Shown: piece by piece, positions 1,765 to 62,284 of the stretch
How the letters are laid out: each line of letters begins with the position of its first letter
Numbering within the stretch: position 1 is the stretch's first letter
DNA from: Burkholderia ubonensis
GTDB lineage: Bacteria > Pseudomonadota > Gammaproteobacteria > Burkholderiales > Burkholderiaceae
Direction: 5' to 3'
Length of the DNA stretch: 64,000 nucleotides
NCBI RefSeq assembly: GCF_001718695.1
Contig: NZ_CP013420.1
Coordinates: forward strand, 1,798,001 to 1,862,000
The notes under the pieces: generated by a model
Database searches by the model: none
The model's input: only the letters and a program-made list of their open reading frames with translations
Told to the model about the DNA's origin: nothing
Translations under genes and position numbers: made by a program

Positions 1765-3231
1765 ATGAACATCATCGAACCCGGCATCCGCAACCTGGCG
1801 CTGGCGAAGGACATCCTGCTCACGCCCTATGGCCTCGACGAGAGCCTCCTGACGCGCACGATCGCCGACATCTTCACGCATCGCGTCGACTACGCGGACC
1901 TGTACTTCCAGGCGACCCGCAGCGAAGCGTGGAGCCTCGAGGAAGGCATCGTCAAATCGGGCAGCTTCAGCATCGACCAGGGCGTCGGCGTGCGCGCGGT
2001 CGCGGGCGACCGCACCGCGTTCGCGTATTCCGACGACCTGTCTCCCGAAGCGATCGCACAGGCGGCCGCGGCCACCAAGGCAATCGCGGCCGCGGGCGGC
2101 GGCCGCCAGAAGATCAAGGCGGCCACGTCGCTGAAGGGCATCTCGGGCCGCGACCTGTACCTGCCGTCCGACCCGCTCGCGTCGCTCGACGCCACGGCCA
2201 AGGTCAGGCTGCTCGAGCGCATCGAGCAGATGGCGCGCGGCCGCGACCCGCGCATCACGCAGGTGATGGCGGGCCTCGCCGGCGAATACGATGTCGTGCT
2301 CGTCGCGCGCAGCGACGGCGCGCTCGCGGCGGACATCCGCCCGCTGGTGCGCGTGTCGGTGACGGTGATCGCCGAGCAGAACGGCCGCCGCGAGATCGGC
2401 ACCGGCGGCGGCGGCGGCCGCTTCGACTACGGCTACTTCACGGACGACGTGCTGTCGCGCTACGTCGACGACGCGGTGCACGCGGCGCTCGTGAACCTCG
2501 ATGCGCGCCCGGCGCCGGCCGGCGCGATGACGGTCGTGCTCGGGCCGGGCTGGCCGGGCGTGCTGCTGCACGAGGCGATCGGCCACGGCCTCGAGGGCGA
2601 CTTCAATCGCAAGGGCTCGTCGGCGTTCGCGGGCCGGATCGGCGAGCAGGTCGCCGCGAAGGGCGTGACCGTCGTCGACGACGGCACGCTGCCGAACCGC
2701 CGCGGCTCGCTGAACATCGACGACGAAGGCAACCCGACCCAGTGCACGACGCTGATCGAGGACGGCATCCTGAAGGGCTACATCCAGGACACGCTGAACG
2801 CGCGCCTGATGAAGATGCCCGTCACCGGCAACGCGCGGCGCGAGTCGTACGCGGCGCTGCCGATGCCGCGCATGACCAACACCTACATGCTGAACGGCGA
2901 CAAGGACCCACAGGAAATCATCGCGTCGGTGAAGAACGGCCTGTATGCGGTGAACTTCGGCGGCGGCCAGGTCGACATCACGAACGGCAAGTTCGTGTTC
3001 TCGGCGTCCGAGGCGTACATGATCGAGAACGGCAAGGTGACGTATCCGGTCAAGGGCGCGACGCTGATCGGCAGCGGCCCGGAATCGCTGAAGTACGTGA
3101 GCATGATCGGCAACGACATGTCGCTCGACACCGGCGTCGGCGTGTGCGGCAAGGAAGGCCAGAGCGTGCCGGTCGGCGTCGGCCAGCCGACCCTCCGGAT
3201 CGACAAGATGACGGTCGGCGGTACGGCATAA
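1765..3231 (+). CDS. tldD: Metalloprotease TldD
   Basis: TldD is the catalytic half of the TldD/TldE (PmbA) zinc metalloprotease, which cleaves unfolded peptides and trims microcin B17 and CcdA in E. coli. The 488-residue product matches the family length (E. coli about 481). The active-site helix HEAIGH starts at residue 269 (HExxxH), followed by GLEGDFNRKGSSAF. The C-terminus has the conserved GQSVPVGVGQPTLRI. I chose the ATG at 1765 because it begins MNIIEPGIRNLALAKDILL. The frame extends upstream to a TTG at 1690, but those 25 codons look unlike protein. The gene is cytosolic and is followed by an inverted repeat and then the aroG promoter. Confidence 0.95.
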   Translation: MNIIEPGIRNLALAKDILLTPYGLDESLLTRTIADIFTHRVDYADLYFQATRSEAWSLEEGIVKSGSFSIDQGVGVRAVAGDRTAFAYSDDLSPEAIAQAAAATKAIAAAGGGRQKIKAATSLKGISGRDLYLPSDPLASLDATAKVRLLERIEQMARGRDPRITQVMAGLAGEYDVVLVARSDGALAADIRPLVRVSVTVIAEQNGRREIGTGGGGGRFDYGYFTDDVLSRYVDDAVHAALVNLDARPAPAGAMTVVLGPGWPGVLLHEAIGHGLEGDFNRKGSSAFAGRIGEQVAAKGVTVVDDGTLPNRRGSLNIDDEGNPTQCTTLIEDGILKGYIQDTLNARLMKMPVTGNARRESYAALPMPRMTNTYMLNGDKDPQEIIASVKNGLYAVNFGGGQVDITNGKFVFSASEAYMIENGKVTYPVKGATLIGSGPESLKYVSMIGNDMSLDTGVGVCGKEGQSVPVGVGQPTLRIDKMTVGGTA

Positions 3232-3246
3232 CCGCATCGCCGCGCA

Positions 3247-3284
3247 GACATTCCGCGCATTTTGCGAAAAACGCGCGGAATGTC
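3247..3284. repeat. 12-bp inverted repeat after tldD
   Basis: GACATTCCGCGC at 3247-3258 is repeated inverted at 3273-3284, with a 14-base loop that itself contains TTTT/AAAA. It sits 16 bases after the tldD stop and just before the aroG promoter. It may terminate tldD transcripts, although no U-run follows directly. Confidence 0.5.
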
Positions 3285-3305
3285 CGCATTTTCGTCGCCC
3301 CCTGG

Positions 3306-3334
3306 TTGCCAGCCGCGCGGCGAGCGGGTATAAA
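3306..3334 (+). promoter_or_regulatory. Probable sigma-70 promoter of aroG leader
   Basis: A -35 box TTGCCA at 3306-3311 and a -10 box TATAAA at 3329-3334 are separated by exactly 17 bases. Transcription would start near 3341, about 30 bases before the leader-peptide ATG. The fit to consensus is good, but the promoter is predicted from sequence only. Confidence 0.7.
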
Positions 3335-3371
3335 TTCCGAATCAACTTTTTTGACGAACCCACTTTCCGTC

Positions 3372-3437
3372 ATGTCCGCCAAGTTTTACTTTTACTTTTT
3401 TTGGCATCTCAGACCGCTGGCGGATCGAGAGGGTTGA
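3372..3437 (+). CDS. Leader peptide upstream of aroG (aromatic-rich, 21 residues)
   Basis: This short ORF encodes MSAKFYFYFFWHLRPLADREG. Residues 5-11 are F-Y-F-Y-F-F-W: four Phe, two Tyr and one Trp codon in a row. Such a run is the hallmark of ribosome-stalling attenuators that sense charged tRNA, as in pheL and trpL. It starts about 30 bases after a good promoter. It ends 30 bases before the A-run of an intrinsic terminator and 192 bases before aroG. No strong ribosome binding site is visible. The peptide is presumably a regulatory device with no function of its own. It probably reports on all three aromatic amino acids, although Phe codons dominate. Confidence 0.8.
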   Translation: MSAKFYFYFFWHLRPLADREG

Positions 3438-3484
3438 TGGCGCGTAAAGCGCAACCAAAATTCCCGAAAAAAAAACCGCCGGCG
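3415..3484 (+). promoter_or_regulatory. Antiterminator pairing of aroG attenuator
   Basis: CGCTGGCGG at 3415-3423, inside the distal leader codons, can pair over nine positions (one G-U) with CCGCCGGCG at 3476-3484, the 5' arm of the terminator. A ribosome stalled on the codons at 3384-3404 would leave 3415-3423 free to form this antiterminator. A ribosome reaching the stop at 3437 would cover it and let the terminator fold. A small hairpin (GCGC at 3440-3443 with 3449-3452) lies between the two. Confidence 0.7.
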
Positions 3485-3502
3485 AACCCGGCGGTTTTTT
3501 TT
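3467..3502 (+). terminator. Intrinsic terminator (attenuator) before aroG
   Basis: The stem CCGCCGG (3476-3482) pairs with CCGGCGG (3488-3494) around a five-base loop. It is preceded by nine A and followed by eight T. Its position between the leader ORF and aroG, with no other gene ending here, indicates an attenuator. Confidence 0.85.
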
Positions 3503-3629
3503 CGCCCTTCGCCCCTGGTCGCCGCCGAAGTCGTCCCGCAGCGCCGGCCGAAACGACTGAATTGCCTGAATTGATGAATTTGCCGCCCGCGCACTGACCG
3601 AACGGCTAGCCCTATCAAGGAGAAACAGC

Positions 3630-4703
3630 ATGCCCCCGCACAATACCGACGACGTCCGCATTCGTGAACTCAAGGAGCTGACGCCGCCCGCCCACCTGAT
3701 CCGCGAGTTCGCGTGCTCCGAAGCCGCGTCCGAGCTGATCTACAACGCGCGGCAGTCGATGCACCGGATCCTGCACGGGATGGACGACCGGCTGATCGTC
3801 GTGATCGGGCCGTGCTCGATCCATGACACGAAGGCGGCGCTCGAGTACGCGGGGCGACTCGTCAAGGAGCGCGAGCGCTTCAAGAACGAGCTGGAAATCG
3901 TGATGCGCGTGTACTTCGAGAAACCGCGCACGACGGTCGGCTGGAAGGGGCTCATCAACGATCCGCACCTCGACAACAGCTTCAAGATCAACGAAGGGCT
4001 GCGCACCGCGCGCGAGCTGCTGCTGCACATCAACGAAATGGGGCTGCCGGCCGGGACCGAATACCTCGACATGATCAGCCCGCAGTACATCGCGGACCTG
4101 ATCTCGTGGGGCGCGATCGGCGCACGCACGACCGAATCGCAGGTGCACCGCGAGTTGGCGTCGGGGCTGTCGTGCCCGGTCGGCTTCAAGAACGGCACCG
4201 ACGGCAACGTGAAGATCGCGGTCGACGCGATCAAGGCGTCGTCGCAGCCGCACCATTTCCTGTCGGTGACGAAGGGCGGCCACTCGGCGATCGTGTCGAC
4301 GGCCGGCAACGAGGATTGCCACGTGATCCTGCGCGGCGGCAAGACGCCGAACTACGACGCGGAAAGCGTGAATGCCGCGTGCGCGGACATCGGCAAGGCC
4401 GGCCTCGCCGCGCGCCTGATGATCGACGCGAGCCACGCGAACAGCTCGAAGAAGCACGAGAACCAGATTCCGGTATGCGCGGACATCGGCCGCCAGATCG
4501 CGGCGGGCGACGAGCGCATCGTCGGCGTGATGGTCGAGTCGCACCTCGTCGAAGGCCGCCAGGACCTGAAGGAAGGCTGCCCGCTGACCTACGGCCAGAG
4601 CATCACCGATGCATGCATCGCCTGGGAGGACAGCGTCAAGGTGCTCGAAGGCCTCGCGGAATCCGTCAAGGCGCGGCGCGTCGCGCGCGGCAGCGGGAAC
4701 TGA
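3630..4703 (+). CDS. aroG: 3-deoxy-7-phosphoheptulonate synthase (DAHP synthase, class I)
   Basis: Condenses phosphoenolpyruvate and erythrose 4-phosphate into DAHP, the first step of the shikimate pathway. The 357-residue protein aligns closely with E. coli AroG/AroF. The metal ligands are in place: Cys62 (GPCSIHD), His269 (IDASHANS), Glu303 (VESHLVEG) and Asp327 (SITDACI). The KPRTTVGWKGL phosphate-binding motif lies near residue 98. A strong ribosome binding site (AAGGAG) precedes the ATG. The gene sits alone between an upstream attenuator with an F/Y/W leader peptide and a downstream terminator. That suggests transcriptional control by aromatic amino acid supply besides the family's usual feedback inhibition. 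Which amino acid inhibits the enzyme cannot be read with certainty. Confidence 0.95.
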   Translation: MPPHNTDDVRIRELKELTPPAHLIREFACSEAASELIYNARQSMHRILHGMDDRLIVVIGPCSIHDTKAALEYAGRLVKERERFKNELEIVMRVYFEKPRTTVGWKGLINDPHLDNSFKINEGLRTARELLLHINEMGLPAGTEYLDMISPQYIADLISWGAIGARTTESQVHRELASGLSCPVGFKNGTDGNVKIAVDAIKASSQPHHFLSVTKGGHSAIVSTAGNEDCHVILRGGKTPNYDAESVNAACADIGKAGLAARLMIDASHANSSKKHENQIPVCADIGRQIAAGDERIVGVMVESHLVEGRQDLKEGCPLTYGQSITDACIAWEDSVKVLEGLAESVKARRVARGSGN

Positions 4704-59325: not shown

Positions 59326-59465
59326 GCGAACTCTCCAAAAAGCTTTAGCCGCTATTGTAGGGCCGATCTCAAGATCGTGCCGAAGTCCATGAAATCAACA
59401 GGTTCTTGTCGATTTCGTCAAACCGGCGGCCGGCGGCGGCATGCAACCGCGAATCGGTCGCGCAT

Positions 59466-59499
59466 AAAAAAACCGCCAGCGCGAAAGCTGGCGGTTTTT
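59466..59499 (-). terminator. Terminator after rpsI
   Basis: CCGCCAGC (59473-59480) pairs with GCTGGCGG (59487-59494) around GCGAAA. On the minus strand seven T follow. Confidence 0.88.
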
Positions 59500-59541
59500 C
59501 CGGCGGACGCCGCCCGAAAGCGGCGCGGCCAAGAAGCGAAA

Positions 59542-59934
59542 TTAACGCTTCGAGAACTGCTTGGCGCGGCGTGCCTTGCGCAGACCGACCTTCTTACGCT
59601 CGACTTCACGTGCATCGCGCGTGACGAAGCCTGCGTTCGACAGCGACGGCTTCAGCGTCGCGTCGTAGTCGATCAGTGCACGGGTGATGCCGTGGCGCAC
59701 TGCGCCTGCCTGACCCGTTTCACCGCCGCCCGTCACGTTCACCTTGATGTCGAACGTCTGGCCGTGGTTCGTGAGTTCCAGCGGCTGACGCACGATCATC
59801 AGCGACGTTTCGCGCGAGAAGTAGTCAGCGATGGGCTTGCCGTTGACGACGATGTCGCCCTTGCCAGCCTTGATGAAGACACGAGCGACGGCGCTCTTGC
59901 GGCGGCCCGTACCGTAGTTCCAGTTACCGATCAT
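59542..59934 (-). CDS. rpsI: 30S ribosomal protein S9
   Basis: Small-subunit protein at the ribosomal P-site; its C-terminal tail touches tRNA. The 130-residue protein has [19 protein letters not shown] at the start, [19 protein letters not shown] in the middle and the conserved basic end [18 protein letters not shown]. It follows rplM by 11 bases, the universal L13-S9 operon. Confidence 0.98.
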
Positions 59935-60910: not shown

Positions 60911-60955
60911 CGCTCGCGGGACGCGCACATTGCGCGCCGATGTTTGCATGGGACG

Positions 60956-61046
60956 AAAAAAAGCCCGAACGGCTGGTTCGGGCTTAATCCACCATAGGAG
61001 GAGGGTGGAGGAGACATGCGGAGGTTGTCGCAGCGCGACAACCAAT
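60956..61046 (-). ncRNA. Probable small RNA with anti-Shine-Dalgarno loops
   Basis: A complete minus-strand unit of about 91 nt. A promoter with TATAAT lies directly upstream. The RNA would start near 61046 with hairpin 1 (GGTTGTCGC with GCGACAACC, 61043 to 61023, nine pairs). The linker ATGTCTCCT follows. Hairpin 2 is CCACC/GGTGG (61008 to 60989), whose loop reads CTCCTCCTAT. The terminator hairpin is GCCCGAAC/GTTCGGGC (60983 to 60963), followed by seven T. The CUCCUCC motif in loop and linker is complementary to Shine-Dalgarno sequences, suggesting translational repression of many mRNAs. The plus strand has no U-run, so this strand is preferred. Identity with a described Burkholderia sRNA could not be checked. 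Confidence 0.75.
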
Positions 61047-61858: not shown

Positions 61859-61871
61859 TCGCATTCGAACG

Positions 61872-62284
<413 letters not shown>

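Follow-up and report, generated by a model that had tools for sequence, protein, structure and literature searches.

A predicted transcription attenuator with a mixed aromatic leader peptide upstream of aroG in Burkholderiales

In Burkholderia ubonensis, the gene aroG, which encodes a 3-deoxy-7-phosphoheptulonate (DAHP) synthase, is preceded by a short open reading frame (ORF) with an unbroken run of aromatic codons. Does this leader set entry into the shikimate pathway by transcription attenuation and, if so, which amino acids would it read? The locus lies in a 64,000-nucleotide stretch of DNA (the window, to which all positions refer) on contig C1 of a three-contig genome of 6.68 Mb in total. 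In the attenuators pheL and trpL of Escherichia coli, a short leader ORF with control codons is followed by RNA that forms either a 2:3 antiterminator or a 3:4 terminator. Each of these leaders reads one aromatic amino acid and they control pheA or trpEDCBA, as described in the available part of PMC11802643. An earlier note on the window proposed attenuation control of aroG; this proposal is well supported by the anatomy of the upstream region and by its conservation in relatives, and comparison of sequences makes it very probable that aroG is controlled by a classical ribosome-mediated transcription attenuator.

Anatomy of the tldD–aroG gap

The upstream gene, tldD, ends at 3231, and a promoter-like pair, the leader ORF and a terminator occupy the gap between tldD and aroG. 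The features of the region are as follows.

3306–3334, forward strand: promoter-like pair, TTGCCA (3306–3311) and TATAAA (3329–3334) with a 17-base spacer, read from the sequence
3372–3437, forward strand: leader ORF of 21 codons, ATG 3372 to TGA 3437, MSAKFYFYFFWHLRPLADREG; read from the sequence, with an aromatic leader in 80 of the 80 best-scoring relatives
3375–3381, forward strand: possible region 1, UCCGCCA just after the leader ATG, able to pair with 3418–3424 (fold; helix of −9.6 kcal/mol)
3384–3404, forward strand: seven consecutive aromatic codons, F-Y-F-Y-F-F-W (TTT TAC TTT TAC TTT TTT TGG), all four Phe codons being TTT
3407–3430, forward strand: P1 hairpin, UCUC-NNN-CCG-CUGG-CGG-NNN-GAGA, an alternative (1:2) structure in which region 2 would be hidden (RNAalifold consensus)
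3415–3423, forward strand: region 2, CGCTGGCGG, which would form the 5′ strand of the antiterminator (its core pairing with region 3 is conserved)
3473–3502, forward strand: intrinsic terminator (regions 3 and 4) with U tract (sequence, folding and covariation)
3476–3484, forward strand: region 3, CCGCCGGCG, shared by the antiterminator (as 3′ strand) and the terminator (as 5′ arm)
3617–3622, forward strand: Shine–Dalgarno sequence AAGGAG of aroG, read from the sequence
3630–4703, forward strand: aroG, DAHP synthase of 357 amino acids (NCBIfam NF006723, AroG; 605.1 bits against a cut-off of 568)

The sequence bears out the promoter with 17-base spacing, the 21-codon ORF and the seven consecutive aromatic codons of the earlier note, together with its intrinsic terminator and its nine-position pairing between 3415–3423 and 3476–3484, of which eight positions are Watson–Crick pairs and one is G-U. 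FYFYFFW is the sole run of at least six F/Y/W codons in the six frames of the window. The terminator stem (3473–3482 with 3488–3497) has ten pairs and a five-base loop, runs into T3495–3502 and folds at −16.6 kcal/mol, or −21.8 kcal/mol with more of the flanking A/U pairs included. The RNA from 3340 to 3505 is more stable than any of 200 shuffles (z = −4.15). Nine complementary positions were reached by 145 of 20,000 mononucleotide shuffles of the leader tail, so chance alone would produce the region 2:3 pairing of a single sequence in as many as about 1 in 140 cases.

A simple promoter and terminator scanner missed both the promoter, because it demands a −10 box with T as its sixth base, and the leader terminator, probably because the stem runs into the T run; both were checked by eye and by folding. 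A promoter-like pair resembling that of the window, with the end of the −10 box 34–50 bases 5′ of the leader ATG, occurs at 57 of 81 loci under a loose pattern applied without a chance control. The gap also holds, after tldD, an inverted repeat at about 3244–3287 that matches its own reverse strand and is probably the tldD terminator.

Conservation and pairing of the leader RNA

A scan for relatives gave 586 loci, of which we analysed the best 80; these come from Burkholderia, Paraburkholderia, Caballeronia, Trinickia, Mycetohabitans, Pandoraea, Pararobbsia, Cupriavidus, Ralstonia and other Burkholderiaceae, with no Bordetella locus among them. Every one of these best 80 has an aromatic leader before aroG (a short ORF with four or more F/Y/W among nine residues) and, by patterns adjusted to what was seen, a terminator after the leader; the loss in close relatives that the earlier note held to speak against its reading was thus seen at none of them, Burkholderia and Ralstonia included. 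A stricter pattern missed the terminator at 3 of 81 loci and the tail motif at 3. Nineteen further upstream stretches from the same family gave leader and terminator in 11, leader only in 2 and neither in 6.

The window and its 80 relatives yielded 75 distinct leader–terminator sequences (alignment A1). In this alignment the tail codons that lie in P1 and region 2 are close to invariant (CTC, CTG, GCG and GAG each in 75/75, CCG in 74/75), and the third position of the first Tyr codon varies (TAT/TAC 39:30). Across the leader tail (3405–3431), the mean identity is 99.9% for 19 paired bases, a count that includes 3417–3420 and 3424 as partners of region 3 or of the start-codon region, against 79% for 8 unpaired bases; GGG at 3431–3433 is also conserved, though it lies outside the named pairings. 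Four leaders (L062, L078, L089 and L097) have the tail in another frame, so that the peptide is lost and the nucleotides are kept. Given the near-invariant tail codons, the difference between paired and unpaired bases and these four leaders, it seems to be the RNA, not the tail peptide, that is under conservation. Some of the four shifted frames could be sequencing errors in the T run.

The terminator is paired in 750 of 750 cells (100%) over the 75 sequences. Two-sided changes occur in three of its ten pairs, A-U to G-C in 10 and 5 sequences and C-G to U-A in 1, which makes 16 cells against a mean of 1.6 in shuffles made without regard to kinship; by pair types there is no excess (5, against 5.1 in shuffles). 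The antiterminator keeps its seven core region 2:3 pairs in 75/75 sequences, with two outer pairs failing in 25 and 5, and changes in the core are absorbed as U-G in 10 sequences (A-to-G in region 3) and as G-U in 3; no antiterminator pair has a two-sided change among these 75 close sequences. P1 is paired in 99.8% of cells over the 75 sequences, nearly invariant and without two-sided change, and because almost nothing varies its pairing is neither proved nor disproved by conservation.

Between families, a region 3 G goes with a region 2 C in 13 of 14 cases and a region 3 A with a region 2 T in 13 of 17, an association outside the window’s own family with Fisher p = 1.8 × 10−4, not corrected for kinship; for 17 of the 123 leaders, the region 2 motif search behind this test located no motif. 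In the own family, T persists in region 2 whichever state region 3 has (64 and 10), and 4 of the 31 leaders outside it place a region 2 C opposite a region 3 A, which is a mismatch. When region 2 was set against region 3 in 26 chosen leaders, most fitted the scheme, with varying length; region 2 was not located in L145, and in L134, L163, L180 and L205 the best complementarity was weak or other than the usual CTGGCGG.

A covariance model of the leader–terminator element (R1) has one strong place in its own genome, before aroG (137.9 bits), and the next scores 24.3 bits. That second match (window 59465–59559, reverse strand; E 0.21) is probably just a terminator. A second AroG in the same genome (contig C3, L122), 61% identical, is preceded over 500 bases by neither an aromatic leader nor a terminator under the rules used. 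Over 300 Burkholderiales genomes, R1 found 63 places in 60 genomes, the other 240 having no match, and 54 of the 63 are immediately upstream of aroG, among them the 30 top-scoring places and 51 of the top 52 (49 placed by tblastn of the flank and 5 by aroG coordinates). Under a four-in-eight rule, each of these 54 carries an aromatic leader. The nine places that are not before aroG look, as far as they were inspected, like lone terminators or chance: one in G270, second places in G385, G377 and G070 (the last being the reverse strand of its own element), and those in G165, G240, G300, G336 and G365.

A scan that makes no use of the model covered 68 stretches upstream of aroG in other families and found an aromatic ORF with a terminator in 21 of them, against 0 of 1,360 resampled stretches; the 68 are a subset of 97 aroG-bearing genomes, with L191 excluded as its ORF overlaps the terminator. 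Nine of 29 families were positive, and nothing was found in the other 20. Among 274 genomes of the class, the only R1 match outside the order at E 0.001 falls in family f63 (G607, locus L276). It too is a complete element, has the leader MNAARASFYFWYYFPKPLAEEGLRSP and stands upstream of an aroG with 70% identity; this copy may be old or transferred. The order of the aromatic residues varies between families, as expected if codon content and not the peptide is selected.

The locus thus has a short ORF rich in codons for end products of the downstream pathway, an intrinsic terminator, recognised by sequence and folding, between that ORF and aroG, and a conserved antiterminator, exclusive of the terminator, that joins the leader tail to the terminator 5′ arm. 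By most of the comparative tests available, the element appears to be under selection as an attenuator. It might be argued instead that the terminator is the mere end of the upstream tldD transcript and the leader ORF a by-product, as a stem with A and U tracts can act on both strands and this one is located in the tldD–aroG gap. We consider this highly improbable: tldD is followed by a separate inverted repeat of its own, aroG retains both leader and terminator throughout the best 80 of 586 loci and in several further families, changes in the terminator go along with changes in region 2 from one family to another, and the codon choice of the leader is biased.

Leader translation, ribosome position and the amino acids read

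From the parts of the element, their alternative pairings and their conservation, we infer how transcription, translation, stalling and the response to starvation would follow one another in an attenuator of this kind. Transcription would start at about 3341, and a ribosome would then translate the leader. When charged tRNA-Phe is short (or tRNA-Tyr and, in the window’s lineage, perhaps tRNA-Trp), the ribosome would halt within 3384–3404 with its edge no further than 3414, leaving region 2 free to pair with the emerging region 3; the terminator could then not form in time, and RNA polymerase would read into aroG. With all charged tRNAs plentiful, the ribosome would reach the stop codon and cover six of the nine bases of region 2, region 3 would pair with region 4 and transcription would end. 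Without translation, region 2 would pair with the start-codon region or within P1, and termination would be favoured too.

With the leading edge of a stalled ribosome taken to lie 12 bases 3′ of the A-site codon’s first base, a stall at the Trp codon (3402) would put that edge at 3414, one base 5′ of region 2. We calculated the probability of the antiterminator by folding the RNA ahead of a placed ribosome up to region 3, with the RNA behind it either covered or free. With the RNA behind covered, the probability in the window is 1.0 at every aromatic codon; the edge is not sharp, as a stall at the His codon still gives 1.0 and one at the Leu codon 0.51, before the value drops to 0. Under the same setting it is at least 0.9 at 81 of 81 loci for the first Phe, last Phe and first Tyr codons and at 66 of the 66 loci with Trp. 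With the RNA behind the ribosome free, the probability in the window is lower, 0.66 for a stall at the last Phe codon and 0.28 for one at the Trp codon.

For a ribosome at the stop codon, the antiterminator probability is 0.0 in the window, with a median of 0.0 over the 27 loci with the shortest tails (window included), a median of 0.12 in 2 loci and medians of 0.85–1.0 in 52 longer-tailed loci. In this model, the simple static picture would fit the window, and the longer-tailed relatives, which keep the antiterminator at the stop codon, would have to rest their off state on P1 or on timing. The full-length window transcript folds into the terminator in every ribosome state, so the switch would have to be kinetic.

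Translation of the leader is an assumption, because an SD-like four-mer is present 5′ of the leader ATG at 0 of 81 loci; one is present 5′ of aroG at 81 of 81. Leader peptide formation without a ribosome binding site is reported for C. glutamicum ilvBNC in the title of a study cited in PMC4046766. An in-frame TTG at 3351, 21 bases 5′ of the leader ATG and likewise without an obvious SD sequence, is an alternative candidate start.

The Phe codons of the leaders are strongly biased. In the window and its 80 relatives, TTT outnumbers TTC by 285 to 37 (89% TTT, n = 322), against 35 to 452 in the aroG genes of the 80 relatives (7% TTT, n = 487). UUU is thus a rare Phe codon, which would sensitise the leader to small shortages.

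The earlier note had the leader reading Phe, Tyr and Trp together, which is supported only in part. Across 123 distinct leaders of 12 families, Phe is present in 123, Tyr in 121 and Trp in 82. Most of those from beyond the own family were found with R1, which favours look-alikes. The leader cores hold 522 Phe, 257 Tyr and 85 Trp residues. In A1, the Trp column is TGG in 62 of 75 sequences and a Ser, Ala or Gly codon in the other 13; among the best 80 of 586 loci, the replacements include all 4 from Pandoraea and 7 of 11 from Cupriavidus, whereas Ralstonia and Cupriavidus pauculus have leaders with Trp. Tyr occupies its two positions in 69 and 70 of the 75. Leaders with Trp are distributed by family as follows.

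Own family: 60 of 75
f23: 7 of 7
f49: 5 of 5
f3: 4 of 5
f10: 2 of 5
f4: 1 of 7
f8: 1 of 6
f43: 0 of 4
f11: 0 of 4
f20: 0 of 3
f12: 1 of 1
f39: 1 of 1

On these sequences, Trp is a lineage-bound and not a constant part of the putative signal.

Our tentative reading, which we hold to be plausible and short of probable, is that one Burkholderiales leader RNA sets shikimate entry by integrating how far tRNA-Phe, tRNA-Tyr and, in several lineages, tRNA-Trp are charged, with initiation that does without an SD sequence, the rare codon UUU for sensitivity and a set of amino acids that is rewired between families while the RNA switch stays unchanged. Another reading, which we would likewise call possible but not favoured by the odds, keeps the same attenuator and makes it in practice a phenylalanine sensor, to which the Tyr codons contribute little and in which Trp is incidental. 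The presence of Phe in every distinct leader, with Tyr and Trp in fewer (most leaders outside the own family having come through R1), fits such a sensor, as does the replacement of Trp in close leaders; three of four f13 leaders found without R1 also have no Tyr in the aromatic cluster. The rare-codon bias, too, is strongest for Phe and weaker for Tyr (TAT in 83 of 184 leader codons from the window and 80 relatives, against 107 of 571 in aroG of the 80 relatives). In addition, the AroR leader of C. glutamicum is reported, in the available text of PMC11802643, to respond to a shortage of Phe but not to Tyr. However, a phenylalanine sensor sits less well with the retention of both Tyr positions and of TGG in most of the 75 close leaders, and region 2 would stay free at Tyr and Trp stalls as well, provided that RNA behind the ribosome is covered.

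Relation to known leaders

The attenuator proposed for aroG would share its mechanism with pheL and trpL of Escherichia coli; unlike them, its leader mixes aromatic codons. The earlier note set the mixed run apart from the textbook single-amino-acid leaders, but mixed leaders as such are nothing out of the ordinary. In E. coli, thrL (Thr/Ile) and ilvL (Ile/Val/Leu) are leaders in which one peptide reads several pathway products, a mixed-leader logic that the aroG element would share, although their residues are not aromatic. An aromatic mixture is known as well, in the AroR leader of C. glutamicum aroF, which carries Phe-Tyr-Phe (PMC11802643; predicted in PMC4046766). As described in the available parts of these papers, AroR resembles the present element in having a Phe-Tyr-Phe leader before a DAHP synthase gene, and the two would share attenuation by ribosome stalling. 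The likeness is one of description: AroR belongs to another phylum, has another leader and is reported to respond to Phe only, and the text at hand mentions no Trp.

Other leaders have been placed before DAHP synthase genes by computation. The uORFC-13-1 motif lies before aroF in Acholeplasma and environmental sequences and, in the available text of PMC8632094, likewise combines an upstream ORF that has one or more Phe codons with a terminator; it differs in that its U run codes for at least one Phe. The same text states that attenuation of E. coli aroF had been hypothesised (PMC8632094). For Shewanella, leader RNAs of DAHP synthase genes have been predicted, and a table gives a Tyr-tRNA attenuator for aroF (PMC2659441, as far as available). 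These predictions and those for Vibrio concern Proteobacteria, as here, and DAHP synthase genes; as their accessible text has it, they are computational and refer to Gammaproteobacteria. In Vibrio, aroAI is the DAHP synthase gene. A predicted leader RNA precedes aroAI-tyrA in two Vibrio species, according to the portion of PMC1173090 at hand.

We found no betaproteobacterial aroG leader among the papers that our searches listed; an earlier prediction may exist in Vitreschak 2004, Panina 2001, Neshat 2014 or supplementary tables. In the accessible main text of a transcription start site paper on B. cenocepacia J2315 (PMC4603805), words starting with ‘aro’ or ‘attenuat’ occur 0 times, as do ‘aroG’ and ‘leader’ in PMC10175445, and the available portions of PMC2965389, PMC1173090 and PMC1262725 do not describe the element.

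This type of switch has long been known; the aroG element recurs in several families of the order and matches no Rfam family searched. Its interest, which we judge to be moderate, lies in its spread, its shifting set of amino acids and a rare-codon leader that lacks an SD sequence. Several Burkholderiales families, including the metabolic engineering genera Cupriavidus and Paraburkholderia, gain a testable control of aromatic flux. The distinct leaders form a natural series in which the amino acids read change and the switch is kept; with this series one can ask how attenuator specificity evolves and whether Trp and Tyr codons in mixed leaders count. The element could also become an Rfam family.

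None of 4,227 Rfam models reaches its threshold on the element, which scores 21.5 bits against Phe_leader of pheL-pheA (RF01859) and 26.9 bits against Thr_leader (RF00506), each with a gathering score of 55. A relaxed search gave 28 sub-threshold matches, none of them convincing; ohsC (30.2 bits) and SpF25 (27.9 bits) match mainly the terminator. These searches also bear on whether the leader RNA is instead a riboswitch or T-box that binds an amino acid or tRNA directly and for which the leader ORF is irrelevant. Such an RNA would, like this one, be structured and conserved and have a terminator, yet no T-box or riboswitch family appears at the gathering score or among the relaxed matches, and conservation lies in the aromatic codons, the order of which varies between families, and in the alternative pairings. 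We give this explanation next to no weight and retain the ribosome-mediated attenuator.

In the whole window, the sole Rfam families above threshold are two on the reverse strand: a Betaproteobacteria toxic small RNA (RF02278) at 60955–61016, with 74.6 bits, and the class A RNase P RNA at 61870–62281, with 287.6 bits.
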